From positions 1,245,225 to 1,309,224 of the forward strand of contig NZ_CP020991.1 in assembly GCF_002874775.1 (NCBI RefSeq): a stretch of DNA of 64,000 nucleotides. Direction: 5' to 3'. The stretch's first letter is position 1; the number at the start of each line of letters is the position of its first letter. The notes beneath the pieces are model-generated. The model had not been told where the DNA came from. It made no database searches and saw nothing but the letters and a program-made list of their open reading frames with translations. A program made the translations under genes and the position numbers. This stretch comes from Monoglobus pectinilyticus (GTDB taxonomy: Bacteria; Bacillota; Clostridia; Monoglobales; Monoglobaceae). This document shows, one piece after another, positions 589 to 41,960 of this stretch.

Positions 589-1162
589 ACATATAAATTA
601 AAAAATAAATAGAGCTGTATATAACAAACATCGGCAGGGTGACCGAAGGTCACCGCGTTAGGTGCGTAGCCGCGGAATAGCAGCTAACAAATTAAAATCA
701 CCGTTAACCTATGTCCATATAGTTTGCCTTATAAACTAAAAAATACGGACCGACGGAATTTGTCAAGAGTGGTTTCGCGAGAATGGTATGAATAATATTT
801 TAAATAATAAAAGAAAGATAAATATAAAATACATATAAATTAAAAAGTAAATAGAGCTGTATTTAACAAACATCGGCAGGGCGACCGAAGGTTACCGCGT
901 TAGGTGCGTAGGTGCGGAATAGCAGCTAACAAATTAAAGTCACCGTTAACCTATGTCCGTATAGTTTGCCTTATAAACTGAAAAATACGGACCGACGGAA
1001 TTTGCCAAGAGCAGTTTCGCGAAAGTGGTATGGATAATATTTTAAATAATAAAAGAAAGATAAATATAAAAAATATATAAATAAAAAAAATAAATAGAGC
1101 TGTATATAACAAACATCGGCAGGGTGACCGAAGGTCACCGCGTTAGGTGCGTAGCCGCGGAG
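589..1162 (+). repeat. Tandem repeat, about 241-bp unit, 2.4 copies
   Basis: Copies begin near 589, 831 and 1072; the third stops near 1160 inside the unit. Each starts with an AT-rich stretch ending in TAAATAGAGCTGTAT, then AACAAACATCGGCAGG, a short hairpin (638-654 in copy 1) and CGCGTTAGGTGCG. The first two continue with a tail containing CACCGTTAACCTATGTCC and ATACGGACCGACGGAATTTG. Copy 2 has a few point differences, including changes within the stem. The hairpin section belongs to a family of intergenic repeats found elsewhere in the window. No plausible protein is encoded. Confidence 0.85.
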
Positions 1163-1370
1163 ATGCAAAAAATAAATAAAAATAATTTTAAATTAACACA
1201 AATCAATTGAATTCATTAACCAAATAGATGTGTTATGCTGTAAAACACAAAATTTGATTTATAGGTTTATAGTTATTATTTTATTAAGAGTTTTATGAAC
1301 TCATAAGTTATTTAAACTAAATGTATAACAGAAAAACATGACATTTATAGATATATAAATTATTGTTTAA
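1163..1370. other. AT-rich intergenic region without recognised features
   Basis: This lies between the tandem repeat and the fabZ terminator. I see no gene, tRNA or hairpin in it. Confidence 0.5.
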
Positions 1371-1402
1371 GTAAAAAACAGACCGAAACGATTTCGGTCT
1401 GT
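1371..1402 (-). terminator. Rho-independent terminator of fabZ
   Basis: An 11-bp perfect stem (1378-1388 with 1392-1402) with a three-base loop lies six bases past the fabZ stop. On the minus strand it is followed by a run of five T. Confidence 0.9.
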
Positions 1403-1408
1403 ATCTAA

Positions 1409-1843
1409 TTAATCTTTATCTATTAAAGCAAAGGAAATTTCGCCTTTTGCCGCTACTTCATCGCCGACATAAGCGCAGACGTCAGCTTTGCCCATTACTG
1501 AACGGAACTTTGTGAGTTCTACCTCAAGTCTTAACGTCTCGCCTGGCACCACTTGATGTTTAAATTTAAAATTATTTATTCCGGTAAACACAGCCAGCTT
1601 GTTTTTAAATTCCGGTTTGCTCAGTATAACAACAGCGCCAACCTGGGCGAGAGCCTCGCAAATCAAAACTCCGGGCATAATTGGATTTCCGGGAAAATGT
1701 CCCTGAAAGAACGGCTCGTTCATAGTAACATTTTTAAGTCCAACAGCTCGGGAACCTTCCTCAAACTCTACTATTTTGTCAATAAGCAAAAATGGATATC
1801 TATGTGGGATTATATCCATTATTTCTTTAATATTAAGTTCCAT
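1409..1843 (-). CDS. fabZ: 3-hydroxyacyl-[acyl-carrier-protein] dehydratase FabZ
   Basis: This 144-residue protein dehydrates 3-hydroxyacyl-ACP to trans-2-enoyl-ACP in cytoplasmic type II fatty acid synthesis. It has the normal family length, the N-terminal HRYPFLLID segment and the hot-dog active-site region [13 protein letters not shown] with the catalytic His, followed by CEALAQ with the catalytic Glu. The ATG is preceded by GGAGG about nine bases upstream. It stands alone, not inside a fab operon, with its own strong terminator. Confidence 0.95.
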
Positions 1844-1951
1844 ATAATAATACCTCCAGAAATTTTTATGCTAATATTATAACTCAACAAAAAATATTTT
1901 ACAATAAGTATTTTGGTATAGAAATATAAAAATAAAATAACATTTTAATAT

Positions 1952-2015
1952 ACCGACCGCGCAGCTTGCCTTACGAGCCGCAAAGCGGACTGCCGAAGCT
2001 CGCCTTTGTGTTAGG
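1952..2015 (-). repeat. Dispersed hairpin element (minus-strand orientation)
   Basis: Read on the minus strand this has TTCGGCAG, a stem CCGC-TTT-GCGG (1978-1988) and then CTCGTAAGGCAAGC. This matches the plan of the elements at 629, 7215, 27331, 28238 and 41445, but with its own stem sequence. The remainder of the 1860-2220 gap is AT-rich with nothing else recognised. Confidence 0.65.
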
Positions 2016-2224
2016 ATAAGAAAATACTATTAAATCACCTTATAAAATTTAATATAAATAGTGACTTAAATTATATGTAGATAAATTAAATACCTTGGAA
2101 AATATTTTTTATATTTAATATGATGTAGAGTTTTATGCACAGTTGATAGTTGCAGAAAATATCTGTCAAATGTTATAAGATATGTAAATTTTTTAATTTT
2201 TAAAAAAATTTTTTCAAAAAAGTA

Positions 2225-2253
2225 TTGACAAGCTATTCTAAATATGTTATCAT
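2225..2253 (+). promoter_or_regulatory. Promoter of tRNA-Tyr
   Basis: TTGACA at 2225-2230 and TATCAT at 2248-2253 are separated by 17 bases. They lie about 48 bases upstream of the tRNA. Confidence 0.8.
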
Positions 2254-2300
2254 AGTCAGGTCGTTAACGCGAGACAGCATAAACGGCGCTAATTAAACAT

Positions 2301-2385
2301 GGAGGGGTTCCCGAGTGGCCAAAGGGGGCAGACTGTAAATCTGTTGCATCTTGCTTCGATGGTTCGAATCCATCTCCCTCCACCA
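2301..2385 (+). tRNA. tRNA-Tyr (anticodon GTA)
   Basis: This is an 85-nt class II tRNA with an encoded CCA end. The acceptor stem pairs GGAGGGG with TCCCTCC, with one G-U pair. The anticodon loop CTGTAAA carries GTA at 2335-2337, there is an extended variable arm, and the T-loop is GGTTCGAATCC. It stands alone between its own promoter and terminator. Confidence 0.96.
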
Positions 2386-2386
2386 C

Positions 2387-2418
2387 AACGGAGCAAAGTT
2401 CGCTTTGCTCCGTTTTTG
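2387..2418 (+). terminator. Terminator after tRNA-Tyr
   Basis: An 11-bp stem (2388-2398 with 2403-2413) around a TTCG tetraloop is followed by a T-run. Confidence 0.92.
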
Positions 2419-2450
2419 TATAGAAAAAATAAGAAATGTCTTATATATTT

Positions 2451-3218
2451 TTAAGTGAAACTGTCTCTGTCACCGTTATTTTTCTCAGTTGTGGCTATTG
2501 CCGCGCAATACACAGCTTTGGCGCCGGAAAGTTTTAACACTCTTGCACATTCATTGAATGTTGCGCCTGTGGTCGTAACATCATCAATAACCAGGATAGT
2601 TTTGCCTTGAATATTATCGCTGTTTCCTTTGAGACCGAAAGCTCCGTTCAGATTTTGCTGTCTTTCAAAGCTAGAAAGATCTGTTTGTTTACTGGTTTGT
2701 CTGATTCGTTTAAAAAGGTTTGGATAATATTTTACACTGAGCAGTTTGGCAGTCTTTTTTGCCAGCGCACCGCTTTGGTCAAACCCTATTTCTTTCATAC
2801 GCTGGCGCCGCGGCGGTATAGCTGTGATATAGTCAAAGTTGACGCCGCCAAAATCATTTTTAACCATTGCTGTTATTAAATTTGAAAATGTGTTCACTGA
2901 ACTTAGGCTTCGGGCGTGTTTGAGATTAAGTATTCCTCTTTTGGAATTTCGGTCATATTCCACAGCAGCAGTAATACCATTATAATAGGTGCATATATTT
3001 GACTTAGCTTTTCTAAAACAACTTTGGCAGAAGCGGTAACGAGGGTTTCCAAGCGGCGTGCCGCAGACTTTGCAGCGCTTGCGGCTGGCACAGAATTTTA
3101 TCTTATCCATACATTCACTGCATATATTAATGCCGGATTTTTGAAAACTTATTAACTTTCCGCAGAAGCTGCATTTAGATGGATAAACAAGATTTACAAG
3201 GCGGCTCAAAATATTCAT
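2451..3218 (-). CDS. comFC: ComF family phosphoribosyltransferase-like protein
   Basis: This 255-residue cytoplasmic protein has the two-part ComFC design. An N-terminal zinc-ribbon-like region has CSFC (residues 16-19), CSEC, CKVC and CQSC pairs. A C-terminal phosphoribosyltransferase domain has the PRPP-binding motif TILVIDDVTTTGAT from residue 207. Family members are needed for DNA uptake during natural transformation in Bacillus, but their biochemical role is not settled. No helicase partner (ComFA) lies beside it. The ribosome binding site is weak (AAGG about 11 bases upstream). It is divergent from the PAP2 gene. Confidence 0.85.
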   Translation of the reverse strand: MNILSRLVNLVYPSKCSFCGKLISFQKSGINICSECMDKIKFCASRKRCKVCGTPLGNPRYRFCQSCFRKAKSNICTYYNGITAAVEYDRNSKRGILNLKHARSLSSVNTFSNLITAMVKNDFGGVNFDYITAIPPRRQRMKEIGFDQSGALAKKTAKLLSVKYYPNLFKRIRQTSKQTDLSSFERQQNLNGAFGLKGNSDNIQGKTILVIDDVTTTGATFNECARVLKLSGAKAVYCAAIATTEKNNGDRDSFT

Positions 3219-3343
3219 AGACTATGATACCTTTCGCATATAATAATTAATTTTACATTATATAACATAATTTTGCAAGATATATCAAAAATTTGGCGTT
3301 AAACTAATCTAGGCGTGATTTATTTATGACAGGAGGACGGGAT

Positions 3344-3901
3344 TTGATAGAATTTATTACAAAAATAGATTTTGCGGTTTTGGAATTTATTCGAAACACA
3401 TTAAACAGTTCTTTTATGGATTACATCATGCCTATCATAACCGATTTTGGTTCCGGAGGACTGCTTTGGATTGCGGTGGGAGTCATAATGTTATGCACTG
3501 AAAAATATCGAAGATGCGGGGCTTCGGTTTTGATCGGACTGCTGCTGTGCTTGGTTTTGGGAAACATCATTTTAAAACCGCTTATCGGCAGAATGAGACC
3601 CTGCTGGATAAATGACAGTATAGATATGCTTGTTAGGATTCCCAGGGACTACTCCTTCCCGTCAGGACATACCCTGGCTGTTTTTACAACAGCGTTTATA
3701 ATTTTTGGATATTCAAAAAAGATAGGAATACCGCTTGTAGTTTTAGCGTGCTTAATTGGATTTTCAAGAATGTATTTATATGTCCATTACCCTACTGATG
3801 TATTGGGTGGCATAGCATTAGCCGCTCTCATTGCGTGGGCAGTTAGAAAATTTGTTAACGGGACAGTATTCAGCCGGATGTTTCGGAGGTTTGAAGACTA
3901 G
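3344..3901 (+). CDS. PAP2-family membrane phosphatase
   Basis: This is a multi-pass membrane phosphatase of the PAP2 superfamily, which includes undecaprenyl-diphosphate and lipid phosphatases. The three signature blocks are present: KPLIGRMRP, PSGHT, and SRMYLYVHYPTDVLGG carrying the catalytic His and Asp. The frame is open from an ATG at 3326, but a perfect AGGAGG (3331-3336) lies inside that stretch seven bases before an in-frame TTG at 3344. I therefore take TTG as the start, giving 185 residues. The substrate cannot be told from sequence; undecaprenyl diphosphate recycling is the usual guess. Confidence 0.85.
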   Translation: MIEFITKIDFAVLEFIRNTLNSSFMDYIMPIITDFGSGGLLWIAVGVIMLCTEKYRRCGASVLIGLLLCLVLGNIILKPLIGRMRPCWINDSIDMLVRIPRDYSFPSGHTLAVFTTAFIIFGYSKKIGIPLVVLACLIGFSRMYLYVHYPTDVLGGIALAALIAWAVRKFVNGTVFSRMFRRFED

Positions 3902-3967
3902 AAGTTTCGGTTATAAAAACTTAATAATTTTTTTATATATTATTTATAAAATCATGACAGAACAGAG

Positions 3968-3996
3968 TTGTTTTTTAAAATCTTATATAATATAAT
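3968..3996 (+). promoter_or_regulatory. Probable promoter of the flippase-mazG-rqcP operon
   Basis: TTGTTT (3968-3973) and TATAAT (3991-3996) are 17 bases apart, about 70 bases before the flippase start. Confidence 0.6.
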
Positions 3997-4068
3997 AAAA
4001 AGAGTGACTTTTTGAAGTTTATAATTTACAGATAAAGCGGTTTAACTTACGATTGAGGAGAGGATTTT

Positions 4069-5853
4069 TTGGAAAAAACAGAAGCAACTAAAGTTGAAAC
4101 AAAAGGCGGTTCAAAAGGAAGCCATTTTATGCAGGGGGCTTTAGTTTTGGGTATAGCCAGCCTGATTGTAAAAATAATAGGCGCAGTATTCAAAATACCT
4201 CTTATTAATTTGATTGGCGATGACGGAAGCGGTTATTTTAATGTGGCATATCAAATATACACGTTTATGTTTATAGTCGCTACGGCCGGATTTCCGATAG
4301 CTATATCAAAAATGGTTGCAGAGAGTATGGCTAGAAATGATGAAACTGATGCCAAAAGAGTATTTCAGACGGCGATTTCATTTTTGGCTGTTATAGGATT
4401 GGTCGGCAGTATAATTCTATTTGTTTTTGCAAAACAGCTGGCAGGTTTGGTTGGAATTCCGGATGCAGAGCTTGGTATAAAAGCTATTTCGCCGGCAGTT
4501 TTCTTTGTATCTTTGGCGTCGTCAATGAGAGGCTATTTTCAAGGCAGACAAAATATGTTCCCAACCGCAGGTTCTGAAGTAATAGAGTCCAGCGGTAAGA
4601 TGGTTATAGGCTTGCTCATGGCGTCGTTCTTTATGGGGATGACTATTGTTCCGAATTTGGACAAGGTGATAGATTTTGTAACACGCCAGGTAGACACCGC
4701 CCATATGCGTACAGTTTATGCGTCTGCCGGAGCCATTTTTGGTGTGACTGCCGGAACTCTTTTATCGTTCCTGTTACTGTCAGTAATATACATATGCTTG
4801 GCTATAGGTGCAAAGCGGCATGCTAAAAATATTGCGCCGATGACAGCGGCCCAGGAAAAGCTGAGACCGAAAAGAACCATTTTAAAAGAACTGATAATGA
4901 TAGCAATACCAATAACTATAGGGGCGTCTGTTTCAAGTCTTACAACTCTTATAGATATGACAACAATAAGCCGTAGGCTGGTTACTAATCCGAACGTGTT
5001 TAACGAGTACGCATTTATGTTTGAACAAGGGACGTCATTCTATGATAAGGCCGTTGGAGCAGGGTGGACCGGTGCGGTGCTTGATTCACAGAAAGCCTCA
5101 ACTCTTTATGGAATGTACACGGGAAAAGCTCTGACTATGTTTAACCTGCCGTTAACCTTGGTTGTGGCTCTGGGAATGAGTATAGTTCCCGCAATTTCAT
5201 CAGCTTTGGCTAGAGCCAGAAAAGGCGAGGCAGGAAGCATCACTGAGAGCGCTATAAGAATTGCCATGCTGTTCGGTGCGCCGTGCGCTATAGGAATGTC
5301 GGTGCTGTCCAGCGGTGTTTTAGGTCTGTTGTTTAGTGACGACAATGCGCATGTGGTTTTAAGCATTTTGTCAATAGCAATAATACCGGTTGCCGTAGTA
5401 CAAGTCACAAATGCAATACTGCAGTCATACGGAAAAGTCTATTATCCGGTTGTAAATATGTTGATAGGCGGAGCCGCCAAGGTAATTTTCAACTATATAG
5501 CAATCCCGTACTTAGGTATTGACGGAGCGCCTATAGGAACTTTTATCTGTTATTTAATCATAGCGGTGCTTAATACCGTTCAGATAGTACGTATTGCAAA
5601 CATAAGGTTTAAACCTCTTGATATACTTATAAAACCATTGATTGCGGCCGGCGTTATGGGTGTATGCGGATACTTTTTATCCGGTATTCTGCCAACTTCA
5701 AGAGTTCTCACTGTTTTAGAAATTCTTATTTGCGGAATAATATATGTAATAATGATTTTCGCTGTTCGAGCTATAAAACGTGAGGATATTATGAATATGC
5801 CTAAGGGCGAAAAAATAGCCGGTATACTAGAAAAGTTTAAACTGATAAAATAA
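4069..5853 (+). CDS. MurJ/SpoVB-type polysaccharide flippase (YabM-like)
   Basis: This 594-residue integral membrane protein of the MOP/MATE-like polysaccharide transport family begins at a TTG preceded by GAGGAGAGG. The first membrane segment follows a short charged N-terminus (GALVLGIASLIVKIIGAVFK). About 14 hydrophobic segments follow, including an RGYFQGRQNMFPTA loop typical of the SpoVB/MurJ/YabM group. Members flip lipid-linked cell-wall or spore-cortex precursors across the membrane. Synteny with mazG and rqcP matches the Bacillus yabM-yabN-yabO order, so YabM is the closest assignment. The substrate is inferred only. Confidence 0.85.
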   Translation: MEKTEATKVETKGGSKGSHFMQGALVLGIASLIVKIIGAVFKIPLINLIGDDGSGYFNVAYQIYTFMFIVATAGFPIAISKMVAESMARNDETDAKRVFQTAISFLAVIGLVGSIILFVFAKQLAGLVGIPDAELGIKAISPAVFFVSLASSMRGYFQGRQNMFPTAGSEVIESSGKMVIGLLMASFFMGMTIVPNLDKVIDFVTRQVDTAHMRTVYASAGAIFGVTAGTLLSFLLLSVIYICLAIGAKRHAKNIAPMTAAQEKLRPKRTILKELIMIAIPITIGASVSSLTTLIDMTTISRRLVTNPNVFNEYAFMFEQGTSFYDKAVGAGWTGAVLDSQKASTLYGMYTGKALTMFNLPLTLVVALGMSIVPAISSALARARKGEAGSITESAIRIAMLFGAPCAIGMSVLSSGVLGLLFSDDNAHVVLSILSIAIIPVAVVQVTNAILQSYGKVYYPVVNMLIGGAAKVIFNYIAIPYLGIDGAPIGTFICYLIIAVLNTVQIVRIANIRFKPLDILIKPLIAAGVMGVCGYFLSGILPTSRVLTVLEILICGIIYVIMIFAVRAIKREDIMNMPKGEKIAGILEKFKLIK

Positions 5854-5869
5854 ATTGGAGCTGAAGAGG

Positions 5870-6565
5870 ATGAATTTTAAAGATACGAAAGATAAATATT
5901 CGTTTGATGACCTGGTTGAAATTGTTTCACTTTTGCGTGCGCCGGGCGGCTGTCCTTGGGATAGGGAGCAGACTCATCAGAGTATAAAGAAAAATCTTAT
6001 TGAAGAAGGGTATGAACTGATTGAGGCAATTGACGGCGGGAATCCTGAAAAAATAGCCGACGAGAGCGGGGATTTACTGCTGCAGGTAGTGTTTCATGCA
6101 ATAATCGGGAAAGACAGCGGAGAATATGAAATAAATGACGTTACCGACGCTATCTGCCGAAAACTTATTCACAGACATCCGCATGTGTTTGGTGAAGTCG
6201 AAGTAGCAGACAGCGGAGAGGTTCTTAAAAACTGGGACGCTATAAAACGTGCTGACAGGGAGCAGAGCAGCATTGCTGAGGAACTGCGCGGAGTATCAAA
6301 ATATCTGCCGGCGCTTATGCGAGCTGAGAAAATTCAGAAAAAGGCCGAAAAGGCCGGTTATAAGTTTGAAAATGAGATAAATTTGTCTGTAATTTCGGAT
6401 GATGTAGCTGAAGCTGATAGTGCACCGGAGAAGGATTGCGGTCAGCTCCTGTTTGCGGCGGTAAACTTTTGCCGCAGAGCCGGTGTGGATCCGGAACTGG
6501 CTCTCGCTTCTTATACTGAGAGTTTCACAGATGAATTTGAGAAGTTTGAGAATGGAGAAAATTAA
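5870..6565 (+). CDS. mazG: MazG-type nucleoside triphosphate pyrophosphohydrolase (YabN-like)
   Basis: The enzyme hydrolyses NTPs or dNTPs to monophosphate and pyrophosphate, a house-cleaning role. The N-terminal MazG domain has GGCPWDREQTHQSIKKNL, the metal-binding EEGYE block and the downstream ADESGDLLLQV block. The C-terminal second MazG-like region is degenerate. An upstream in-frame TTG (5855) exists, but its own bases overlap the TGGAG ribosome binding site; the ATG at 5870 is nine bases after that site and gives 231 residues. It lies 16 bases after the flippase, so they are cotranscribed. The N-terminal methylase domain of Bacillus YabN is absent. Confidence 0.88.
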   Translation: MNFKDTKDKYSFDDLVEIVSLLRAPGGCPWDREQTHQSIKKNLIEEGYELIEAIDGGNPEKIADESGDLLLQVVFHAIIGKDSGEYEINDVTDAICRKLIHRHPHVFGEVEVADSGEVLKNWDAIKRADREQSSIAEELRGVSKYLPALMRAEKIQKKAEKAGYKFENEINLSVISDDVAEADSAPEKDCGQLLFAAVNFCRRAGVDPELALASYTESFTDEFEKFENGEN

Positions 6566-6599
6566 ATCTATTTGAAAAAACACTAAGGAGAAAATTGTA

Positions 6600-6839
6600 A
6601 TGCGTTTGGATAAATTTTTAAAGGTGTCCAGGATAATCAAGCGCCGGACGGTGGCTAATGACGCCTGCGACGGAGGCCGCGTTTCCGTAAATGGACGCAC
6701 TGTCAAAGCGTCATATGACGTGAAGCCCGGAGATGAAATAAAAATATTATTTGGTGAAAAGCCTTTGAATATAAGGGTTTTAAATGTAAAAGAGAATGTA
6801 AAAAAGGATGAAGCCAGAGAGCTGTATGAAATAGTTTAA
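6600..6839 (+). CDS. rqcP: S4-domain RNA-binding protein RqcP (YabO)
   Basis: This 79-residue protein is almost entirely an S4 RNA-binding domain: MRLDKFLKVSRIIKRRTVAN, then GGRVSVNGRTVKAS and VKPGDEI. The family (RqcP/YabO/Hsp15-like) binds stalled 50S-peptidyl-tRNA complexes and acts with RqcH in adding alanine tails during ribosome rescue. An AAGGAG lies 12 bases before the ATG. It follows mazG by 34 bases in the conserved yabM-yabN-yabO order. In Bacillus, yabP, yabQ and divIC come next; here the operon ends. Confidence 0.88.
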   Translation: MRLDKFLKVSRIIKRRTVANDACDGGRVSVNGRTVKASYDVKPGDEIKILFGEKPLNIRVLNVKENVKKDEARELYEIV

Positions 6840-7349
6840 ATTTTACATATAATAAATATATTGCGAAAAATAATTCTGTCTGTGTCTGTCGGGCAGTATT
6901 GGGTTTGACGAATTAAAACAACTTGTCGAGTAAATACATGCTGTTTATATACCTAAGCGGCCGCCATTAAAGACCAAAAATTATTAGTTAAAACAGCTGA
7001 TTATAGGATTAAGCTGTATCTAGCAAAAACCTAATGGGTTTAGTTGATACATCTGTTTATAAAACTAAGTAGCAGTTGGCAGAAATATAAATGGACGTTT
7101 TTATGAGTTTTTTCCGTTCTTATACAAGTTGGGTGCACCTTCCGCAGTATGATGAATACCTACAATTTTATGTTTTTTATTTATTTAAAAACTATAGGAC
7201 AGTAATTTAGCGAGCATCGGCAGGCCGCTTTTGCGGCACGTAAGGCGAGCTGAGCGGACAGTATATAAAGATACAATTTTAAAAAGATACTTAAGGCGGA
7301 AATTTATATATCGTTTTAAATAATATGTCCATACTACGGTATGATGTTT
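6840..7349. other. Intergenic region before the glnA leader
   Basis: No gene is visible. It contains one dispersed hairpin element at 7211-7258, listed separately. Otherwise it is AT-rich sequence, including an isolated AAGCGGCCGCCATTA segment near 6955 that I cannot explain. Confidence 0.5.
7211..7258 (+). repeat. Dispersed hairpin element
   Basis: CATCGGCAGG (7215-7224) is followed by a GCCGC-TTTT-GCGGC stem-loop (7224-7237) and ACGTAAGGCGAGC (7238-7250). Flanks match the other family members while the stem sequence is its own. Confidence 0.7.
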
Positions 7350-7400: not shown

Positions 7401-7504
7401 TATATATTGATAATTAAAACGTTATTATTGCTAAAATCTGATAAACTTTGCAATGTGCATTTCGTTTAGTGTGCTGAAAAAATTGTCGTCAGGCAAAAAA
7501 TTAC

Positions 7505-7533: not shown

Positions 7534-7544
7534 CTATCCCGTAG

Positions 7545-27017: not shown

Positions 27018-27403
27018 GTATATGACCCCATATAAAAAATTTTATTATTACATAATAGGGTGTTTGAACCATTTCTTTTTCTCGCAAGAAAAAGAAACGC
27101 TTCACCAAAGAAAAAGTGCTTGCTCGCTTAGGTCGCCTAACGGCTCCAAGGGGCGCTCGCCCCCGCTAATTTCTTTTGCGCTCTACGCACAAAAGAAAAA
27201 GCCCTGTAACTTTCCCGTTGACTTTGTGTGCTACCGTGAAAAAAGATATTCCGAGTTCATATTTATTTCTTATCAAAAAAACTGAGTTTTAGTTTAAATT
27301 ATTACACAAAAAAGCAGGTTTTTAAGTGAACATCGGTAGGGCGCATTTATGCGCCGCGTAAGGTGAGCCAACATCTGAACACGCAGTGTTCAATATATAA
27401 TAT
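27018..27403 (+). repeat. 385-bp direct repeat, copy 1, with several hairpins
   Basis: It starts at TATATGACCCCATAT and ends with GCAGTGTTCAATATATAAT. In order it has a pyrimidine/purine hairpin (27071-27096), a block with GGGGCGCTCGCCCC, a variable hairpin (27170-27198, TTTCTTTTG pairing with CAAAAGAAA) and CCCGTTGACTTTGTGT. It ends with the dispersed element CATCGGTAGG, a GGCGCAT-TT-ATGCGCC stem-loop (27340-27355), GCGTAAGGTGAGC and a GAACAC-GCA-GTGTTC hairpin. A 114-codon frame inside (26941-27285) is not credible as a gene. Confidence 0.85.
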
Positions 27404-27459: not shown

Positions 27460-27681
27460 ATGATGAAAACACGTCTGAAAGATTTACGTATTTCCGCAGG
27501 TCTTACACAAAAGGAAGTTGCAAACGCATTCGGTTTAAAAACTGTCACTTATTCTCGTTATGAAAATGGTGTACATAAAATTCCAGTAAAAGTAATATTA
27601 AATATTGCAGACTTTTATGATACATCTGTTGATTACATTTTGTATCGTACTGATGATTCTAAACCATACCCAATTAATTAA
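27460..27681 (+). CDS. XRE-family DNA-binding regulator, small
   Basis: This 73-residue protein is one Cro/C1 helix-turn-helix: LKDLRISAGLTQKEVANAFG, TVTYSRYENGVHKIP, and VILNIADFYDTSVDYILYR. AGGAG lies ten bases before a doubled ATG (27460 or 27463). It sits between the two 385-bp direct repeats and may have moved with them. Confidence 0.85.
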   Translation: MMKTRLKDLRISAGLTQKEVANAFGLKTVTYSRYENGVHKIPVKVILNIADFYDTSVDYILYRTDDSKPYPIN

Positions 27682-27917: not shown

Positions 27918-27923
27918 TTTTTT

Positions 27924-28308
27924 TGTATATGACCCCATATAATATTTATAATTTTACTTATAATAGGTGTTTGAACCATTTCTTTTTCTCGTAAGAAAAA
28001 GAAACGCTTCACCAAAGAAAAAGTACTGCTCGCTTAGGTCGCCTACGGCTCCAAGGGGCGCTCGCCCCCGCTCATTTCACCATGAAGCATGGCTTCATGA
28101 TGAAAAAAGCCCTGTAATTTTCCCGTTGACTTTGTGTTCTACCGTGAAAAAAGACGCTCCGAGTTCCAATTGATTTACTTATCAAAAAACTGAGTTTTAT
28201 TTAATTATTACACAAAAAAGCAGGTTTTTCAGTGAACATCGGTAGGGCGCATTTATGCGCCGCGTTAGGTGAGCCAACATCTGAACACGCAGTGTTCAAT
28301 ATATAATT
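27924..28308 (+). repeat. 385-bp direct repeat, copy 2
   Basis: It matches copy 1 (27018-27403) nearly throughout. The striking difference is the variable hairpin: TTTCA / TGAAA and ATGAAGC / GCTTCAT (28076-28106) replace the unrelated stem of copy 1. Pairing is kept while sequence is not. The tail carries CATCGGTAGG (28238-28247), the same GGCGCAT stem and GCGTTAGGTGAGC. Confidence 0.85.
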
Positions 28309-28667: not shown

Positions 28668-28925
28668 TTGACAAATGAAGAAAAAGATACTATAATAAAA
28701 ACACTTTAAAGGAAGCTCTCTTCGACAGGCTCAGAGTCTGCTTTGAACCCGCAAGCAAGCTTGCTGATTAAAGATAAAAGGTAACCGTTTAACGGTTGTC
28801 ACAGAAATAAGTAATATTGCTTTTATAGTGACTATTATAATAAATGTTATAATAGATATAACCGTCCGTGCCAAGGTCAGTTATATTGCTTTTATGGACA
28901 CTATTATAAAAAATATTATAATAGT
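28668..28925. pseudogene. Two decayed copies of the toxin-antitoxin cassette
   Basis: A second perfect promoter (TTGACA 28668-28673, TATAAT 28691-28696, plus strand) precedes an insertion and then GATAAAAGGTAACCGTTTAACGGTTGTCAC, split here as GATAAAAGGTAACC and GTTTAACGGTTGTCAC, matching the antitoxin start. Two stretches (28812-28857 and 28881-28924) match the 3' half of the toxin gene, separated by a degenerate terminator hairpin (28858-28884). Neither toxin copy has a start codon or ribosome binding site, so at most the RNA part still works. Confidence 0.65.
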
Positions 28926-33659: not shown

Positions 33660-36600
33660 ATGAAAAAAAGTCAATTTTTCCGCAAAATGTTTGCGGCGGC
33701 TCTCTCGGCAGCAATGGTATTATGTACGCTGACCGGGTATACCGCCGCTCCGGAACCGATGTTCAGCACGGGCAGCAGGATTCGTGTGGACCTAAACGCA
33801 AATGACGGCAGGCAGAATTCTTACACGAATAATGCTTACAATTGGATTGTATCGGGAACCGCACCAACAGCTGCTTTTAACGGTGTTACATTTAAACTCA
33901 GCAACGGCGGGAACACAGGTTCAGGCATTAGGTCAGCCAGTTATAAGAGTTTGACAAAGTCTGACGGTACGACCCCAACTCTTACAATGGATGGCGTGAC
34001 GATTAAGGACGCGGATAAGGGCGGAGCTATTAAGCTTGAAATTTCCGGTCTTTCCTCAGGAACGCACACTCTTACGACCTGGCACAGTTATTTTGACAAT
34101 TGGCCGAACGGCAGTCCGGTGACTGTTACTGTGAATGGTTCAAAATCAAGTACGGTTACAGTCCCCACTCGTGTAACAAACGACGAGAATGCGGGTAAGT
34201 CATTTACGACCTTTAATGCTTCAGGCGGCACGGTTACGGTTTTAATTCAGCCAACAGACACAAGCAAAAACGGAGCCGTGCTGAATGCGTTTGAAATTGA
34301 CGGCGCTGACCCGTTTAAGTCTATTTCAGGAATGAATCCTAAAGACGGAGAAAGACATTTAGAAATAGATAAGGGTCTTTCTTGGACTGCGGGCTCCGGC
34401 GCAAAGAGTCATGATGTTTATATTGGAACAGATTATAACAGCGTGTATAACGCGACTAAAAATTCGGCGGAGTATAAAGGAAACAGAACATCTCCGAATT
34501 ATGCTTTGGACGACAGCTATTCTTCGCTCAACACTTACTATTGGAGAGTTGATGAGGTCGGAAGCAGCGGAGTTACCAAGGGTGCTGTGTACAGTTTTCA
34601 GGTAGCCCGTCTTGCGTTTCCTACAGCTGAGGGTTACGGCCGTTTCGCCAGAGGCGGACAGGGCGGACGTATTGTTGAGGTGACAAATCTCAATGACTCC
34701 GGCTCGGGCAGTTTGCGTCAGGCTCTTGAGGTGGAAAAGGGTCCTCGTATTGTTGTCTTCCGTGTCGGAGGCGTTATTCAGCTGAAAAGCGCACTGGTTA
34801 TTCCGAATGACGGCGGCGAAGTATATGTGGCAGGTCAGACAGCGCCGGGAGACGGTATAACTTTGATAAATTATGATTTTGGTGCTATGGGCTCATCAGA
34901 CGTTATTATTCGTAATATCCGTGTAAGAGTCGGGGATATGGACGGCAAATCAACAGGCGGTATGGGTTTAGGCAGCTGCGATTATAGTATTATTGACCAT
35001 TCTTCAGTATCATGGGCAACAGACGAGGGATTCAGCTCAAGGTCAGCTAAAAATATCACTTTTCAGTGGAATATAATCGGCGAGTCACTGCATGATTCTG
35101 TGCATTATAACGGTGATGACCGTACAGACACAGAACCTCATGCTTTTGCGGCTTCAATCAGCGGTTATGTTGGAAGCTTTCACCATAATCTGCTTATAAA
35201 CTGCACCGGCAGAAACTGGTCATTGGCAGGAGGTATGGAACAAGACGCTCTCACATACGGCGGCAATGTGGATATTAGAAACAACGTTGTTTATAACTGG
35301 AGAGACAGAACAACAGATGGCGGCGTAAGACGACTTAACTTCGTAAACAACTATTACAAAGCAGGAGCGGAAAGCAACACTAATATGCACATAGTCTCAA
35401 TCGACGGCAACGAGCTGAATACTTATGATATGCAGAAGGCATATGTTTCAGGTAATAAAATGGTTGCTCTCGGCGGCTCCGTGTTGCTGAATCCAAGCGA
35501 CGACGCCTGGAGCAAAGGAAAAGCGGTAACGGCAGGCAAGGGCAATAATTCATCAGGAAATAAGGTTTCTGTTTCCGATGTAAGAAGCAACTCGCCTTTC
35601 TTTGAATCTTATGTTAACACCCAATCGGCAGACGAGGCCTATAACAGTGTTGTAAACGGTGTAGGCGCAAACGCTCAGGGCTGGGATTATATAGATTCAC
35701 GCTATATAAAAGAAGTTACAACAGGAACCTATACTTATAAAGGCAGCAAACAAGGGTTGAAAGGTATTATAGACAGTCAGAATGACGCAGGCGGCTATCC
35801 AAATTCATCTAACTTTAAAGGCGGAACGGCGCCTGTAGATTCAGACCATGACGGCATGCCTGACAATTGGGAAAACAGTCATGGGCTCAATCCTAACGAT
35901 TCCGGAGACGGAAGTGCGGTAAGTCTGTCAGCTGACGGTTATACAAATGTTGAAATGTATCTAAATGAACTTGCCGGCGACCCAGTAGTCTTTAACGGTG
36001 GGGGCGGCGAACCTCTTGAGGGCAATATGATTAAATCACTGGTTGTAAAGGATACCGCAAATGCTGCAGACTGGTCAATCCAGTACAATCTGCAGACAGG
36101 TGATGTAATCTACGGCGACAGAGCCAATACTTTTACCAATGTATCTAATTATCTCAAAGGCGCTGAATGGATAAGAATAGCGTGCGATTCAAAGAATCTT
36201 CAGTCTGATGTAGCCGAGTTCACTGCTGGAAGCGCAGTCACAGTGTATGTAGGGTTGGATACCCGAGTATCCAATTTGCCGTCGTGGCTGAGTGGATGGA
36301 CAGCTAACGACTATATACTGCAGGCGTCAAATGATGTGACCTATAAAATATATCAGAAAAACTTTAATCAAGGCGATAAGGTAACTCTGGGAACAAACGG
36401 ACCGCCGTCAGGAGTGGTTATGTATACGGCGTTTGTTAAGCAGGCTGTAACTCCAACGCCGGAACCGGCTCCTGTAACCGGTGATGTGACATATATTGCA
36501 GAGGACTTTGCCAATGGAAGACAAAACGAGCAGAGCGGAACGTTTACATTAAAACCTTCTTATGCAGGAACGGGCATACAGGCTTTGTTCAGTTCTGACG

Positions 36601-37442
36601 GGACAACAATTGATAATGAGTACGTTAAGGGTTATAAGGACTTTATTGGAAACTCAGGCTCAAGCAGCACAAAAGGGGACCCGTATGTGAGCGGAGTGAA
36701 TCTGTCAGCCGGAACATATACAATGTATTACCTGGGAAGCAACAACAGGGGAATAACAATGAATCTAGCAAGCGGTTCGGGAACAGTGGTGTCAGAGGCA
36801 AGAACTCAGACACCTGTTGTAATAACGGAGGACGGAAGCGTCAGGGAATTATGGCTGAGCGCAATAACATTTACACTGCCGCAGGATTTGACAGAAGGAT
36901 CTTTAACATTTACAAACAGTTCAACATGGCTGCCGGATTTATATGCGGTTAAGTTTGTGAAACAGCTGAGTTATATAGCTGAAGATTTTTCGAAAGGCAG
37001 ACAGAATGAGCAGGCGGGAACGTTTGTAATAAGTGATGATTTTATCGGAACAGAGGTTCAGTATATGTTCTGCTCAAATGGAACGACGATTGATAATGAA
37101 TATGTAAAAGGATATAAAAATTTTATAGGAAATCCAAATGCTTCAAATACTTTGGGAGACCCATATGTGGACGGAATAAACCTGTCAGCCGGAACCCATA
37201 CGGTATACTTTATCGGAGCGTATAACAGAGGAATAACAATGAGCCTGTCAGACGGTTCAGGAGTGGTGGCAACAGCAGAGAGAACAGAAAGCCCTGTAAC
37301 ATTGACTCCGGCAGGAGCAGAAAAAGAGCTGCAGCTGAGCAAGATAACATTTACGCTGCCGCAGGACCTGACAAACGGTACCTTAACATTTACAAATTTA
37401 TCAACATGGCTGCCGGATTTATATGCGGTTAAGATAGTATAA
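33660..37442 (+). CDS. Secreted multidomain pectate lyase (PL1-like)
   Basis: This 1260-residue extracellular enzyme should cleave pectate by beta-elimination. A signal peptide (about 1-29) precedes a malectin/CBM-like sandwich (about 35-215) and an Fn3-like segment ending YYWRVDEV. The PL1-type beta-helix (about 318-720) has GGRGG-like ARGGQGGRIVEVTNLNDSG, read here as ARGGQGG and VEVTNLNDSGSGS, and VYVAGQTAPGDG. A calcium-loop motif DSDHDGMPDNWE lies near 730. Three C-terminal modules follow: one at about 789-935, then two homologous repeats (941-1100, 1102-1260), each opening YIAEDF..GRQNEQ and closing STWLPDLYAVK. They are probably carbohydrate-binding. GGAGG precedes the ATG. Confidence 0.9.
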   Translation: MKKSQFFRKMFAAALSAAMVLCTLTGYTAAPEPMFSTGSRIRVDLNANDGRQNSYTNNAYNWIVSGTAPTAAFNGVTFKLSNGGNTGSGIRSASYKSLTKSDGTTPTLTMDGVTIKDADKGGAIKLEISGLSSGTHTLTTWHSYFDNWPNGSPVTVTVNGSKSSTVTVPTRVTNDENAGKSFTTFNASGGTVTVLIQPTDTSKNGAVLNAFEIDGADPFKSISGMNPKDGERHLEIDKGLSWTAGSGAKSHDVYIGTDYNSVYNATKNSAEYKGNRTSPNYALDDSYSSLNTYYWRVDEVGSSGVTKGAVYSFQVARLAFPTAEGYGRFARGGQGGRIVEVTNLNDSGSGSLRQALEVEKGPRIVVFRVGGVIQLKSALVIPNDGGEVYVAGQTAPGDGITLINYDFGAMGSSDVIIRNIRVRVGDMDGKSTGGMGLGSCDYSIIDHSSVSWATDEGFSSRSAKNITFQWNIIGESLHDSVHYNGDDRTDTEPHAFAASISGYVGSFHHNLLINCTGRNWSLAGGMEQDALTYGGNVDIRNNVVYNWRDRTTDGGVRRLNFVNNYYKAGAESNTNMHIVSIDGNELNTYDMQKAYVSGNKMVALGGSVLLNPSDDAWSKGKAVTAGKGNNSSGNKVSVSDVRSNSPFFESYVNTQSADEAYNSVVNGVGANAQGWDYIDSRYIKEVTTGTYTYKGSKQGLKGIIDSQNDAGGYPNSSNFKGGTAPVDSDHDGMPDNWENSHGLNPNDSGDGSAVSLSADGYTNVEMYLNELAGDPVVFNGGGGEPLEGNMIKSLVVKDTANAADWSIQYNLQTGDVIYGDRANTFTNVSNYLKGAEWIRIACDSKNLQSDVAEFTAGSAVTVYVGLDTRVSNLPSWLSGWTANDYILQASNDVTYKIYQKNFNQGDKVTLGTNGPPSGVVMYTAFVKQAVTPTPEPAPVTGDVTYIAEDFANGRQNEQSGTFTLKPSYAGTGIQALFSSDGTTIDNEYVKGYKDFIGNSGSSSTKGDPYVSGVNLSAGTYTMYYLGSNNRGITMNLASGSGTVVSEARTQTPVVITEDGSVRELWLSAITFTLPQDLTEGSLTFTNSSTWLPDLYAVKFVKQLSYIAEDFSKGRQNEQAGTFVISDDFIGTEVQYMFCSNGTTIDNEYVKGYKNFIGNPNASNTLGDPYVDGINLSAGTHTVYFIGAYNRGITMSLSDGSGVVATAERTESPVTLTPAGAEKELQLSKITFTLPQDLTNGTLTFTNLSTWLPDLYAVKIV
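36034..37442 (+). repeat. 1.4-kb near-identical segment, copy 1
   Basis: This region encodes the three C-terminal modules of pectate lyase 1 and matches 39374-40782 at a constant offset of 3340 bases. I saw no indel and only scattered substitutions, many of them synonymous. Confidence 0.9.
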
Positions 37443-37842
37443 AAGACGTTAAAAAGTTTTTTACAGTCTATATAATCGTTAAACGGAAACAATTAGGGGG
37501 ATAGATATCTATCCCCCTAGGGCTGCATTAAAAATTTTAGTCAGTACTCTATAATTTTATTTTATTTTCCTATTATATAGCTGTTTAAATTTTTTATTGA
37601 TAGCTTGAAACAAAAATTTGTTTCTTACCTAATTTATTCATAGTCGGGCTGTGCGTTTATTTTGAATGCACATCTTTAATTTTTAACAAAGAAAAAGAAA
37701 CAAAATAAAAAATTATTAATTAGAAAGGAGGGCAGAAAAAATATAATAGTAAAGGAGGAGTACAAAATAGTATTATTGTATTTGTGGTATAAGTTGTGTT
37801 TGTGGTATTAAATAAAATATAAAGTTAAAGGAGAAAACAATA
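37443..37842. other. Region between the two pectate lyase genes
   Basis: A perfect inverted repeat AGGGGGATAG-ATAT-CTATCCCCCT (37495-37518) lies past the first stop and may act as a terminator, although no T-run follows. A GAAACAAA/TTTGTTTC hairpin is near 37608-37624. Several purine-rich AGGAGG-like runs (37725-37760) precede the second gene. I see no extra gene. Confidence 0.5.
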
Positions 37843-40782
37843 ATGTTAAAAAAGATTGTGTGTATGGTAATATCGGCGTTTATGTTAGTCTCTTTAATAA
37901 CAGTATTTGATACAAGCGAGGTTAGCGCGGCTAATACTCTTCCGGCTTTCCCTGGTGCAGAGGGAGGCGGTATGTATGCAACCGGCGGTCGTGGCGGACA
38001 GGTGGTTCATGTAACAAATTTAAATGACAGCGGCTCAGGCTCTTTTAGGGATGCTGTCGGTACATCAAACAGAATCGTTGTATTTGACGTTGGCGGAACA
38101 ATAACGCTTAAGAGCGATGTTGTTGTAAAAGGCAACGTCACTATTTTGGGACAAACTGCTCCCGGAGGAGCAGGCATAACCCTGAAAAACGGCAAGATTG
38201 GTATGGGCGGAGATAATATTATCGTTCGCTATATTTCATCTAGACCTGGTGAAAAAGGCAGCGGTGATTATGACGCCTGGGGCGGTTCAAATGGCTCTAA
38301 TTCTATTATTGACCACTGTTCGATAGGCTGGGCAAATGACGAGCAGTTTGGATTGTATTCCAATAATATGAACCAAACGGTTCAATATACCATTATCGGG
38401 CCTTCTGACTGTGTATCATATCATTCCAAGGGTGCTCATGGATTTGGGGTTATGTTTGGAAAGGGCGAAAATTCCTGGCATCATAACTTGATTTGTCATA
38501 GCTTGTCAAGAAACTTCAGAGGCAAGGTTGTCGGAACTTATGCAATGGATTTTGTTAATAACGTAATCTATGACTGGGGCAGTCAGACCGCGTATGGAAC
38601 ATTCGGACATGAGAACTATGTAAACAATTACTTAAAAGCCGGCCCATCCACAAAGGGCGGGTATAACTTTATTAACATTTCAAGCGGGACCGCGCCTGAG
38701 AATTATAAGTTTTACTTAACAGGCAATAAAATGGTTAATCCGGATAATTCAGTTATGAGTAAACAAACAAACAATAACTGGAGCGGATTCAATTTTGGAA
38801 GCGCCGGATATGACGAAGCATACTATCGTTCTAATTCCCATTATCCGATTAATGTAAATGGGGTTAACGTATCAGTTGCCCAAAATCCCGAAAGCGCTGA
38901 CGCGGCTTATTCAAATGTGCTTGCTTATGCAGGTTCGGGAATAAATGCGGCGTCACGTCCTAAGATTGACAAGCAGGTTATTGAAGAGACAAGAACAGGC
39001 ACCGGATCACTTACAGGCGGACGTGATTTTTCAACAGTGACAGACAGTGCTGTTTTGGACGCTATAACTAAATATGGCATTAAACATATGGATTATAATT
39101 CTTATTATCCATCGTCGTCATCAAAACAGATCGTTGATTCTGATAACGACGGTATGCCCGACAGCTGGGAGACTGCCCGCGGTCTTAATCCTAACAGCGC
39201 CAGCGATGCAACCGGTGATTACCAGGGTAAAGGATATAACAATATTGAGTATTACAGCCATGATTTAACAATTGATTCGTTCCCGAAAGGAACCGTTACA
39301 TTGTCGCCCGAACTGACACCAACAGCAACACCGAAACCAACCGCAGCGCCAATTCTTAATGGAAATTTGATTAAGTCATTGACAATAAAAGACGCTGCAA
39401 ATGCTGCGGACTGGTCAATACAGAATAATCTGCAGACAGGCGATGTAATCTACGGCGACAGAGCCAATACTTTTACAAATGTATCTAATTATCTCAAAGG
39501 TGCTGAATGGATAAGAATGGCGTGCGATTCAAAGAATCTTCAGTCTGATGTTGCCGAGTTCACTGCTGGCAGTGCAATCACAGTGTATATAGGGTTGGAT
39601 ACCCGAGTATCCAATCTGCCGTCGTGGCTGAGTGGATGGACAGCTAACGACTATATACTGCAGGCGTCAAATGATGTGACCTATAAAATATATCAGAAAA
39701 ACTTTAATCAAGGCGATAAGGTAACTCTGGGAACAAACGGACCGCCGTCAGGAGTGGTTATGTATACGGCGTTTGTTAAGCAGGCTGTAACTCCAACGCC
39801 GGAACCGGCTCCTGTAACCGGTGATGTGACATATATTGCAGAGGACTTTGCCAATGGAAGACAAAACGAGCAGAGCGGAACGTTTACATTAAAACCTTCT
39901 TATGCAGGAACGGGCATACAGGATTTGTTCAGTTCTGACGGGACAACAATTGATAATGAGTACGTTAAGGGTTATAAGGACTTTATTGGAAACTCAAGCT
40001 CAAGCAGCACAAAAGGAGACCCGTATGTGAGCGGAGTAAATCTGTCAGCCGGAACATATACAATGTATTACCTGGGAAGCAACAACAGGGGAATAACAAT
40101 GAATCTGGCAAGCGGTTCTGGAACAGTGGCGTCAGAGACAAGAACTCAGACACCTGTTGTAATAACGGAGGACGGAAGCGCCAGGGAACTATGGCTGAGC
40201 GCGATAACATTTACACTGCCGCAGGATTTGACAGAAGGATCTTTAACATTTACAAACAGTTCAACATGGCTGCCGGATTTATATGCGGTTAAGTTTGTGA
40301 AACAGCTGAGTTATATAGCTGAAGATTTTTCGAAAGGCAGACAGAATGAGCAGGCGGGAACGTTTGTAATAAGTGATGATTTTATCGGAACAGAGGTTCA
40401 GTATATGTTCTGCTCAAATGGAACGACGATTGATAATGAATATGTAAAAGGATATAAAAATTTTATAGGAAATCCAAATGCTTCAAATACTTTGGGAGAC
40501 CCATATGTGGACGGAATAAACCTGTCAGCCGGAACCCATACGGTATACTTTATCGGAGCGTATAACAGAGGAATAACAATGAGCCTGTCAGACGGTTCAG
40601 GAGTGGTGGCAACAGCGGAGAGAACAGAAAGCCCTGTAACATTGACTCCGGCAGGAGCAGAGAAGGAGCTGCAGCTGAGCAAGATAACATTTACGCTGTC
40701 ACAGGACTTGACAAACGGAACATTGACATTTACAAATCTATCAACATGGCTGCCGGATTTGTATGCGGTTAAGATAGTATAA
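37843..40782 (+). CDS. Secreted multidomain pectate lyase (PL1-like), second copy
   Basis: This 979-residue extracellular lyase lacks the N-terminal sandwich domains of its neighbour. A signal peptide (about 1-29) leads directly into the beta-helix: AFPGAEGGGMYATGGRGG, VVHVTNLNDSGSGSFRDAV, and TILGQTAPGGAGIT. Later come NFRGKVVGTYAMDFVNNVIY and a calcium-loop DSDNDGMPDSWE near residue 432. A TPTATPKPTAAP linker joins it to the same three C-terminal modules as in pectate lyase 1. AAGGAG precedes the ATG. The catalytic halves are divergent while the tails are nearly identical. Confidence 0.9.
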   Translation: MLKKIVCMVISAFMLVSLITVFDTSEVSAANTLPAFPGAEGGGMYATGGRGGQVVHVTNLNDSGSGSFRDAVGTSNRIVVFDVGGTITLKSDVVVKGNVTILGQTAPGGAGITLKNGKIGMGGDNIIVRYISSRPGEKGSGDYDAWGGSNGSNSIIDHCSIGWANDEQFGLYSNNMNQTVQYTIIGPSDCVSYHSKGAHGFGVMFGKGENSWHHNLICHSLSRNFRGKVVGTYAMDFVNNVIYDWGSQTAYGTFGHENYVNNYLKAGPSTKGGYNFINISSGTAPENYKFYLTGNKMVNPDNSVMSKQTNNNWSGFNFGSAGYDEAYYRSNSHYPINVNGVNVSVAQNPESADAAYSNVLAYAGSGINAASRPKIDKQVIEETRTGTGSLTGGRDFSTVTDSAVLDAITKYGIKHMDYNSYYPSSSSKQIVDSDNDGMPDSWETARGLNPNSASDATGDYQGKGYNNIEYYSHDLTIDSFPKGTVTLSPELTPTATPKPTAAPILNGNLIKSLTIKDAANAADWSIQNNLQTGDVIYGDRANTFTNVSNYLKGAEWIRMACDSKNLQSDVAEFTAGSAITVYIGLDTRVSNLPSWLSGWTANDYILQASNDVTYKIYQKNFNQGDKVTLGTNGPPSGVVMYTAFVKQAVTPTPEPAPVTGDVTYIAEDFANGRQNEQSGTFTLKPSYAGTGIQDLFSSDGTTIDNEYVKGYKDFIGNSSSSSTKGDPYVSGVNLSAGTYTMYYLGSNNRGITMNLASGSGTVASETRTQTPVVITEDGSARELWLSAITFTLPQDLTEGSLTFTNSSTWLPDLYAVKFVKQLSYIAEDFSKGRQNEQAGTFVISDDFIGTEVQYMFCSNGTTIDNEYVKGYKNFIGNPNASNTLGDPYVDGINLSAGTHTVYFIGAYNRGITMSLSDGSGVVATAERTESPVTLTPAGAEKELQLSKITFTLSQDLTNGTLTFTNLSTWLPDLYAVKIV
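39374..40782 (+). repeat. 1.4-kb near-identical segment, copy 2
   Basis: This is the partner of 36034-37442. The conservation stops close to the start of the modules and at the stop codon, suggesting gene conversion or recent domain duplication. Confidence 0.9.
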
Positions 40783-40813
40783 TATAATTCAAGATTTGGA
40801 GCATATATAGTAT

Positions 40814-40856
40814 AAACCCCATAAAACATATGTTTTTATGGGGTTTGTTTTATTTT
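40814..40856 (+). terminator. Terminator of pectate lyase 2
   Basis: AAACCCCATAAAA pairs with TTTTATGGGGTTT around a short AT loop and is followed by GTTTTATTTT. Confidence 0.92.
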
Positions 40857-41106
40857 GATTCTTGTTTAATAAGCTGATTATGCCGGTATAAAATATATCT
40901 GTGTAAGTTACAATATTCTTATAGTAAGTCAGAAATAATAATAAATTATAAATATTATTTTTATAAATTGCTAATAGTTTTTCAATATAGCTTCCTTGCG
41001 AATAAAATATAGGACACAATAGACTGAACAAAAAAATAAGAATGTTAATAGTGCCGCCGGAAGGTATGATACAGGTGGGCACACCTTCCGAAGTTTGCAG
41101 AATCAT

Positions 41107-41960
41107 ATTATTTTATAATATTTTAGATTAATATCATCAATACAGTGTTCTTTAGTGGTGTGCCCCCACCTCTGGTGGGTGTGATACAAAATAACTTGTT
41201 TTGATTAACCTGCAAGGTCAATTGTGGCTACACTTTTAAATAAAAGTGTATATTATATAAACTAAATAATGTGATATAAACTATAGATGCCAATAATTAA
41301 CTTAGTTGTCATATAATAAATTACTCAGTTGTGATGTATCGCGCGTTTGCGTGTCTCGTTAGGTGAATTGTCAAATCACGCAAAGTGTGAACATACTAAA
41401 AAATTTTTGTAATAATCATTTTTAATAATAAATTTTCCGCAACTGCGCGCCTTACGCGGCAAACTGCGTTTGCCCTCCGATGCTTGCAAAGCCATATCTT
41501 TATAATATTTTAGATTAATGTTCACAATACAGTGTCTTTTAGTGAACATCGGTAGGTATCATCATACCTGTAGGGTGGGGCGATACAAAGTGCCTTGTTT
41601 TGATTAACCTATAATGTCAATTGTGGCTATACTTTTAAATAAAAGTGTATATTATATAAACTATAGATGTCAACAACTACCTTAGTTGTGATATATTGCG
41701 CGCTTGCGTGTCTCGTTAGGTGAGTTGTCAAATCACGCAAAGTGTGAACATACTAAAAAATTTTGTAATAATCATTTTTAATAATAAATTTTCCGCAACT
41801 GCGCGCCTTACGCGGCAAACTGCGTTTGCCCTCCGATGCTTGCAAAACCATATCTTTATATTATTTTTAGATTAATATTCACAATACAGTGTCTTTTAGT
41901 GAACATTGATAGGTATTATCACACCTGTAGGGTGGTGGCGATACAAAGTGATTTTTATTA
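41107..41960. repeat. Tandem repeat of 387 and 357 bp plus a partial third copy
   Basis: Units begin near AATACAGTGT at 41139, 41526 and 41883. Shared blocks include GATTAACCT, CAATTGTGGCTA, CACTTTTAAATAAAAGTGTA, TCTCGTTAGGTGA, a minus-strand dispersed hairpin element (41445-41482, repeated at about 41805-41842) and ATTTTAGATTAAT. Each unit head carries a different small hairpin: CCACC/GGTGG near 41170, GGTAT-CATC-ATACC at 41555-41568, and GGTAT/ACACC in the third. No gene is supported. The 40857-41106 stretch before it shows nothing further apart from a TGCCGCCGGAAGGTATG segment near 41050. Confidence 0.75.

Follow-up and report, generated by a model that had tools for sequence, protein, structure and literature searches.

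Several intergenic sites in a 64,000-base stretch of the Monoglobus pectinilyticus genome (the window; bases 1245225-1309224 of the host's single 2757678-base contig, G000) carry similar flanks around a short hairpin whose letters change from site to site. This raised the question of what kind of element these sites represent, what keeps the hairpin paired and how the copies came to be dispersed. The first-pass annotation had described a dispersed intergenic element with constant flanks and a self-complementary stem of changing sequence. We found that the observation was real and larger than the 64-kb window.

A dispersed extragenic repeat

Nine cores were recovered from the window at E 0.01 or better with a covariance model, R1. 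The covariance-model search of the genome and its relatives that had been suggested with the first description returned 178 cores from the host (window plus 53 stretches fetched around matches) and, with a second model, R2, 59 core matches from the sister species G008 of the same genus. Across the whole host genome R1 gave at least 150 matches at E 0.01 or better, with scoring limited to 150 out of 637 candidates. The gapped exact pattern CATCGGNAGG-N10-40-CGTWAGGYG occurred at 96 places genome-wide, 46 on one strand and 50 on the other, and its backwards-read control at none. In the window one flank was counted 17 times against a maximum of 15 in 100 shuffles, and the other 14 times against a maximum of 8. 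By our own ORF calls none of the 178 cores overlapped an ORF of at least 150 aa, though such ORFs cover 56.7% of that sequence. The element is therefore dispersed, extragenic and present in both orientations between genes, as had been claimed.

The 178 cores span 456.7 to 2589.3 kb of the contig, and regions fetched later added copies within this span. The remaining fifth of the contig, which starts near 2.589 Mb, crosses the contig end and stops at 0.457 Mb, held none of the best 150 genome-wide matches and none of the 178 matches in fetched DNA.

The cores and related parts in the window were as follows.

622-669, + strand: core, copy one of a tandem triplet (242-243 bp per unit), outer helix ACAAA...GTGCGT; R1 64.1 bits
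864-911, + strand: core, copy two of the triplet, with mispairs in part of the apical stem (GGCGACC/GGTTACC); R1 57.1 bits and sequence
1107-1154, + strand: core, third tandem copy; R1 64.1 bits
1962-2005, - strand: degenerate, weak core, CTTCGGCAG...CGTAAGGCAAGC; R1 25.3 bits and sequence
7208-7252, + strand: single core, outer helix GCGAG/GGCGAGC; R1 54.1 bits
27010-27323, + strand: type B upstream arm, TTTGTATATGACCCC..., approximate limits; other copies in the genome, with sites X and Y free of inserts
27324-27370, + strand: type B core, followed by the TGAACACGCAGTGTTCA hairpin; R1 63.5 bits
27460-27681, + strand: small HTH_3 regulator gene, cargo or neighbour, with a type B element on either side; Pfam HTH_3 8.6e-14
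27922-28229, + strand: upstream arm of the second type B element, approximate limits; genome repeats
28230-28276, + strand: type B core; R1 65.4 bits
41443-41489, - strand: type C core, GCAAG...GGCGCGC; R1 58.2 bits
41542-41556, + strand: left module GTGAACATCGGTAGG of an interrupted core; sequence
41557-41697, + strand: second-level insert within the apical stem, approximate limits; sequence
41698-41726, + strand: rest of the interrupted core's 3' stem, with its right module CGTTAGGTGAG; sequence
41799-41845, - strand: type C core; R1 58.2 bits

Six of the seven stems named at first lie within R1 cores, the one at 1962-2005 being weak. The seventh, GGTAT/ATACC at 41555-41568, proved to be an insertion junction. 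The left flank GTGAACATCGGTAGG is followed there by an insertion of about 140 bp, and a fitting right flank, CGTTAGGTGAG, occurs only at 41714-41724; since the two flanks are split in this way, the supposed stem is the start of another repeat. The left flank itself, given before as CATCGGYAGG, was corrected to C-NN-CGG-N-AGG. A target duplication at 7208-7252, where GGACAG stands on either side, was considered and rejected because GCGGACAG recurs 3' of a different copy.

Other features were recorded along the way. The regions 33660-40782 and 49593-58899 of the window hold two large pectate-lyase-like proteins, with matches under the model cut-off, and also two very large hybrid-histidine-kinase-like proteins; a protein similar to Gram-positive AddB scored 652 bits, under the model cut-off of 904, and suggests a Gram-positive host of Clostridia type. 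A 31-nt stretch at 28740-28770 of the window has exact copies in congeners, at least 14 in G004 and others in G007 and G010, and is another genus-wide repeat.

Two covarying helices

We found covariation in two helices of the core. One is the apical stem, variable in letters; the other, an outer helix, is built from the flanks around a tandem mismatch. From the outside inwards, the outer helix leads to a conserved internal loop and then to the apical stem, whose letters are free while its pairing is kept. The outer helix has the form 5'-GYRARC / 5'-GGYGMGC, with the tandem mismatch in mid-helix (G.A or A.C, then A.G). The flanks, taken before as constant, instead covary with each other and form this outer helix, which had gone unseen. 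Tandem G.A steps can be stable in both DNA and RNA helices.

The coupling between flanks emerged when mutual information was computed with no structure assumed. A looser flank pattern in the first-fetched stretches gave 102 copies, 93 of them distinct; as these copies were selected by their flanks, the fixed pattern letters are invariant by construction. Among the 93, L-3/R9 ranked first, L-1/R7 second (99% paired) and L-5/R11 fifteenth (100% paired), and many other top couplings joined right-flank positions to one another, reflecting subfamilies. We then counted pairs in 129 distinct host rows, drawn from the best 150 of the 178 matches with the 28 weakest excluded. The L-3/R9 step was G.A in 76 rows, A.C in 46 and other in 7; the step beside it was A.G in 128 of the 129; and L-4/R10 was CG in 58, TG in 61, TA in 9 and CT in 1. 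At the outermost position most rows had a G-C pair, but A-T was present in part of the host copies and C-G in part of those from G008, which requires more than one event.

Covariation statistics were obtained on 51 copies that we selected among 80 distinct cores. Over both helices 96.6% of pair cells formed standard pairs compared to 73.9% after shuffling, and pairing fell to 22-43% (maximum 42.6%) when the partner was slid by one to three columns. Doubly changed cells numbered 138 against 40.9 in shuffles, with none of 500 shuffles as high; because related copies have changes in common, independent events are fewer than cells. Two coarser measures gave no separation in these 51 copies: pairs with a double change (9 compared to 8.0 shuffled, a count that 105 of 500 shuffles equalled or exceeded) and further pair types (24 compared to 22.1, equalled or exceeded in 49 of 500). 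A mixed alignment of 35 chosen host and G008 copies behaved similarly, with pairing of 92.8% against 68.4% shuffled, 80 doubly changed cells against 23.6, and both coarse measures again without excess over shuffles. These results bear out the claim that the stem varies in letters yet stays paired.

The sister species presented a variant of the same fold. In 11 of 17 chosen G008 rows (alignment A5) the apical stem contained G.A/A.G, which explains why two stem columns of the mixed alignment each had 11 cells without a standard pair, and the other 6 rows were Watson-Crick. In the 44 G008 pattern hits, a few of which are not cores, L-3/R9 was A.C in 43 and thus near-invariant, and some outer pairs were broken: L-1:R7 was A.C in 5, and pairing was lost at L-5:R11 in 4 and at L-4:R10 in 3. 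The G008 cores (L193-L207) also have an extra free-sequence hairpin upstream, whose mean best stem in the 44 hits was 7.8 pairs compared to 5.2 (SD 1.1) in simple shuffles. A further helix of GCGG with CCGC around type C, judged by eye, was inconsistent and was dropped.

Pairing of this kind might also be kept without selection, through templated repair between the arms (quasi-palindrome correction), and the almost perfectly Watson-Crick apical stems with their few wobbles would suit such a process. Copying one arm onto the other, however, cannot yield the G.A to A.C coupling of the outer helix, and uncompensated intermediates exist, as at 864-911 of the window. We regard this explanation as unlikely.

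The folding strand

The wobble pairs of the outer helix were one-sided, with 66 G.T against a single A.C, 61 of the G.T falling at one column pair. This excess indicated that the motif-bearing strand is the folding strand. The apical stem of the host contained 9 G.T and 6 A.C against 845 Watson-Crick pairs, and 7 G.T and 11 A.C in a second count; wobble there is rare and unbiased, so the pattern leans weakly to folded DNA and is compatible with RNA too. The remaining hairpins gave small samples: 5 G.T and 0 A.C in the type A 3' hairpin (p 0.06), 2 and 3 in the type B hairpin (p 1), 1 and 0 in the insert hairpin (p 1), and 16 and 6 in the G008 upstream hairpin (p 0.05).

These counts bear on whether the repeat is a functional structured RNA selected at the level of transcripts, for instance a regulator, a terminator or a processing signal. 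The confinement of the C-G/U-G/U-A exchange in the outer helix to one strand speaks for an RNA, as does the lean to G.T in the type A 3' hairpin and the G008 upstream hairpin, and passages in PMC3049150 report that BIMEs and BOX elements alter the expression of neighbouring or co-transcribed genes. Against this, half of the cores in alternating arrays would be antisense to any transcript, and the host apical stem shows very little wobble and no excess of G.T over A.C. Only four tRNAs in the window reached the gathering score of an Rfam model, and in permissive scans of 1201 window bases and six loci no core did so. A MIR810 match overlapping cores in L136 was chance-like (25.3 against 170 bits), and an L10_leader above gathering score in L199 was positioned away from the cores. 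An RNA function as the source of the selection is thus somewhat unlikely in our judgement.

Types, convergent pairs and arrays

Automatic sorting of the 178 cores by right flank gave 47 of type A, 43 of type B, 76 of type C and 12 others. Copies occurred singly, as convergent pairs or in arrays, some of them alternating. When intact cores less than 600 bp apart were clustered, 71 clusters were obtained, 31 of which held a single core. There were 27 close convergent pairs, each of 137-171 bp; by eye, 24 of them were A facing C with a short non-coding interior, often with GGATTATRACAAA, and the other three, in L144, were of another type. Tandem units had periods of about 138 to 272 bp. One array, at 996.8-997.9 kb, alternated in strand, and those at 456.7-457.3 kb and 1570.6-1571.1 kb kept one orientation; local duplication explains the latter two equally well.

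Upstream of type B cores lies an arm of about 300 bp, which recurs across the genome. Small regulator genes recur near type B and F cores (L142, L147, L152, L156, L165, L192 and window 27460-27681). One blastp group comprised 26 small ORFs in 15 loci, and seven small proteins that were scanned matched HTH_3 (three), MazE_antitoxin (two) and YspA/SLOG (one), with one unmatched.

Integron attC sites likewise have a variable stem and a conserved foot and are read as a folded strand. We therefore asked whether the cores could be attC-type or other tyrosine-recombinase sites bounding gene cassettes. The variable stem between conserved flanks, the cargo-like small regulators (HTH and MazE-like) that lie between cores of types B and F, and ten PF00589 matches in the host are in keeping with such sites. 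The cores lie in both orientations, however, and the 27 close pairs enclose just 137-171 bp, too short for a cassette gene. Moreover, a search with the integron integrase model TIGR02249 gave no match above cut-off in any of 12 genus genomes, where only general tyrosine-recombinase similarity was seen. Taken together, this makes recombination sites of that kind highly improbable.

Insertion of a second repeat into the hairpin

In about two dozen cores the apical stem is split by one to about ten 63-bp hairpin units. The flanks of these interrupted cores stand about 104-108, 186-204, 266 or 687 bases apart, compared to the usual 20 or so. The pattern count was 27, from which three likely skips to a neighbouring copy (L132 98, window 22000 and L150 470) were subtracted to leave 24; at 12 more insert starts no right module was found. 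The insert mostly starts with TGTGACC, contains a variable hairpin of its own (23 distinct) and ends in ATACTCAA(A)T or another tail. An array was seen at L250 601-1210 (G000 about 1785400-1786010), where 9.7 tandem 63-bp units have a left module on one side and an altered right module on the other; R1 found no core there, and the length of this array may differ between strains. A 102-base insert had 59 matches in the host, a count that takes in the array units, and none in 11 congeners. No gene was seen in the inserts examined.

The same inserts enter type B arms at two fixed points. Site X (CACC/AAAGAAAAAG) was empty in 20 copies and filled in 6. Site Y (GCGAG/AAAAAG) was filled in 2, and its 36 empty pattern matches correspond to about 18 places, because the pattern is near-palindromic and both strands were counted. 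At filled sites the bordering letters stand once, with no recognisable target duplication; the right border falls in a run of A and shifts by roughly one residue between copies, and the L141 copy has a different end. Among 39 insert signature sites in the fetched DNA, 21 lay directly 3' of a core left module by a strict test, and by eye the other 18 were mostly further insert units, arm sites or degenerate modules. For the cores themselves no empty site was established, none being found at rRNA-operon paralogues, so their mobility rests on copy number and dispersal.

Narrow distribution and enzyme searches

Among 60 genomes (the host and 59 relatives) searched under stricter filters, R1 matched in two only, the host and G008, and the 58 further relatives gave no core match. 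In a class sample of 391 genomes that overlaps the relatives, and whose listed genomes do not include G008, the host was the sole match and the 390 others gave none under stricter limits, with 15 candidates scored per genome. R2 had no match in G003, in two S. suis genomes (L049, L078) or in one S. gallolyticus genome (L083). A database scan with the flank pattern, the host being left out, returned at least 119 stretches spread across many phyla, which we rejected as relatives: by our own arithmetic about 540 matches are expected by chance, only 2 of 120 examined had at least two outer-helix pairs with an apical stem of at least 4, and three streptococcal matches were one identical stretch. 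A tighter flank pattern had no match in viral contigs, and no description of this hairpin repeat family was found in the open-licence literature.

The first-pass annotation had also proposed that selection keeps the strand folded and that the element follows a logic like that of REP/BIME, and had suggested a search for a dedicated REP-type Tyr transposase. The first two fit the covariation, the extragenic position, the two orientations and some alternating arrays; the transposase is not supported, since PF01797 (Y1_Tnp) matched neither the host (99.93% complete) nor G008 (74% complete). The same search was positive in 5 of 14 control genomes, E. coli included, and gave one match each in 2 of 12 genus genomes, G003 and G007. 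A reverse-transcriptase route was also discarded, the single RVT_1 match in the host having no counterpart in G008.

Genuine REP/BIME elements, dispersed by a RAYT that later disappeared, would share many of these traits, as passages in PMC2817692 describe REPs as extragenic hairpins of more than 100 copies that form doublets and alternating arrays. Besides the lack of a Y1_Tnp match in either species, the GT(A/G)G head is not kept here, its second position being C, T, A or G. This origin seems very unlikely to us.

A composite repeat probably spread in folded form

Covariation of the structure, copy number, extragenic position, convergent pairs and arrays, nesting and a narrow distribution among the genomes searched are supported directly. 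They are probably best explained by lineage-specific, non-autonomous composite interspersed repeats of BIME/BOX-like build, spread as folded strands by an enzyme acting in trans. Such an enzyme would recognise the folded strand and copy or insert the elements. It might read the outer helix and the internal loop and require the apical part only as a helix, which would let the stem drift by compensated changes. The second repeat, made of 63-bp units, would use the hairpins as preferred insertion sites and build tandem arrays inside them.

We also consider, more tentatively, a form of transposition that is neither Y1/RAYT nor integron in type, in which a genus enzyme reads the folded single strand and inserts without target duplication, producing a self-nesting hierarchy of hairpins. 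The enzyme would here read the tandem-mismatch outer helix and internal loop and need just a helix above them. This is a possible reading rather than our preferred one, the composite repeat mobilised in trans.

The host genome supplies a large natural collection of copies and the sister species a diverged one, with letter-free stems and coupled non-canonical pairs. How BOX-like repeats without a resident transposase spread thereby becomes directly testable. One hairpin repeat is also seen to be the insertion target of another, and unoccupied and occupied sites can be compared within the same genome.

Comparison with known systems

Passages in PMC3049150 describe BOX elements as having two end modules, which fold with each other, and between them a tandem series of middle modules that differ in number and fold mostly on their own; the elements form clusters, insert into one another and occur in few host species. 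The present repeat resembles the BOX elements of S. pneumoniae and the BOX-type repeats of S. suis, a likeness that the first-pass annotation had not raised, in having end modules around zero to many tandem middle units, A-(B)n-C, but most cores here have no middle module, the stem varies freely and many copies form convergent pairs. As to a relation in sequence, R2 was negative in the two S. suis genomes and the one S. gallolyticus genome.

REP/BIME elements share with this family extragenic hairpins in high copy (178 here), doublets and arrays, though not all of the arrays here alternate. They differ in the GT(A/G)G head, which is not kept here (all four bases stand at the N of GGNAGG among the 96 exact matches), and the host, which lacks a Y1 match, has an additional tandem-mismatch outer helix and apical letters that are not conserved. 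Integron attC sites differ in the integrase, in orientation and in the close pairs without a cassette.

A second mobile repeat that inserts into a hairpin repeat is described in PMC1525189 for IS elements that target REPs, among them ISPpu9 and ISPsy8. The hairpin repeat is likewise the target here, and the inserter consists of 63-bp hairpin units in which no gene was seen. Collectively, the repeat works like a BIME or BOX element, yet as tested belongs to neither, BOX homology having been tested in three streptococcal genomes. Its build is closest to BOX and BIMEs, and its nested insertion to the IS elements that hit REPs.
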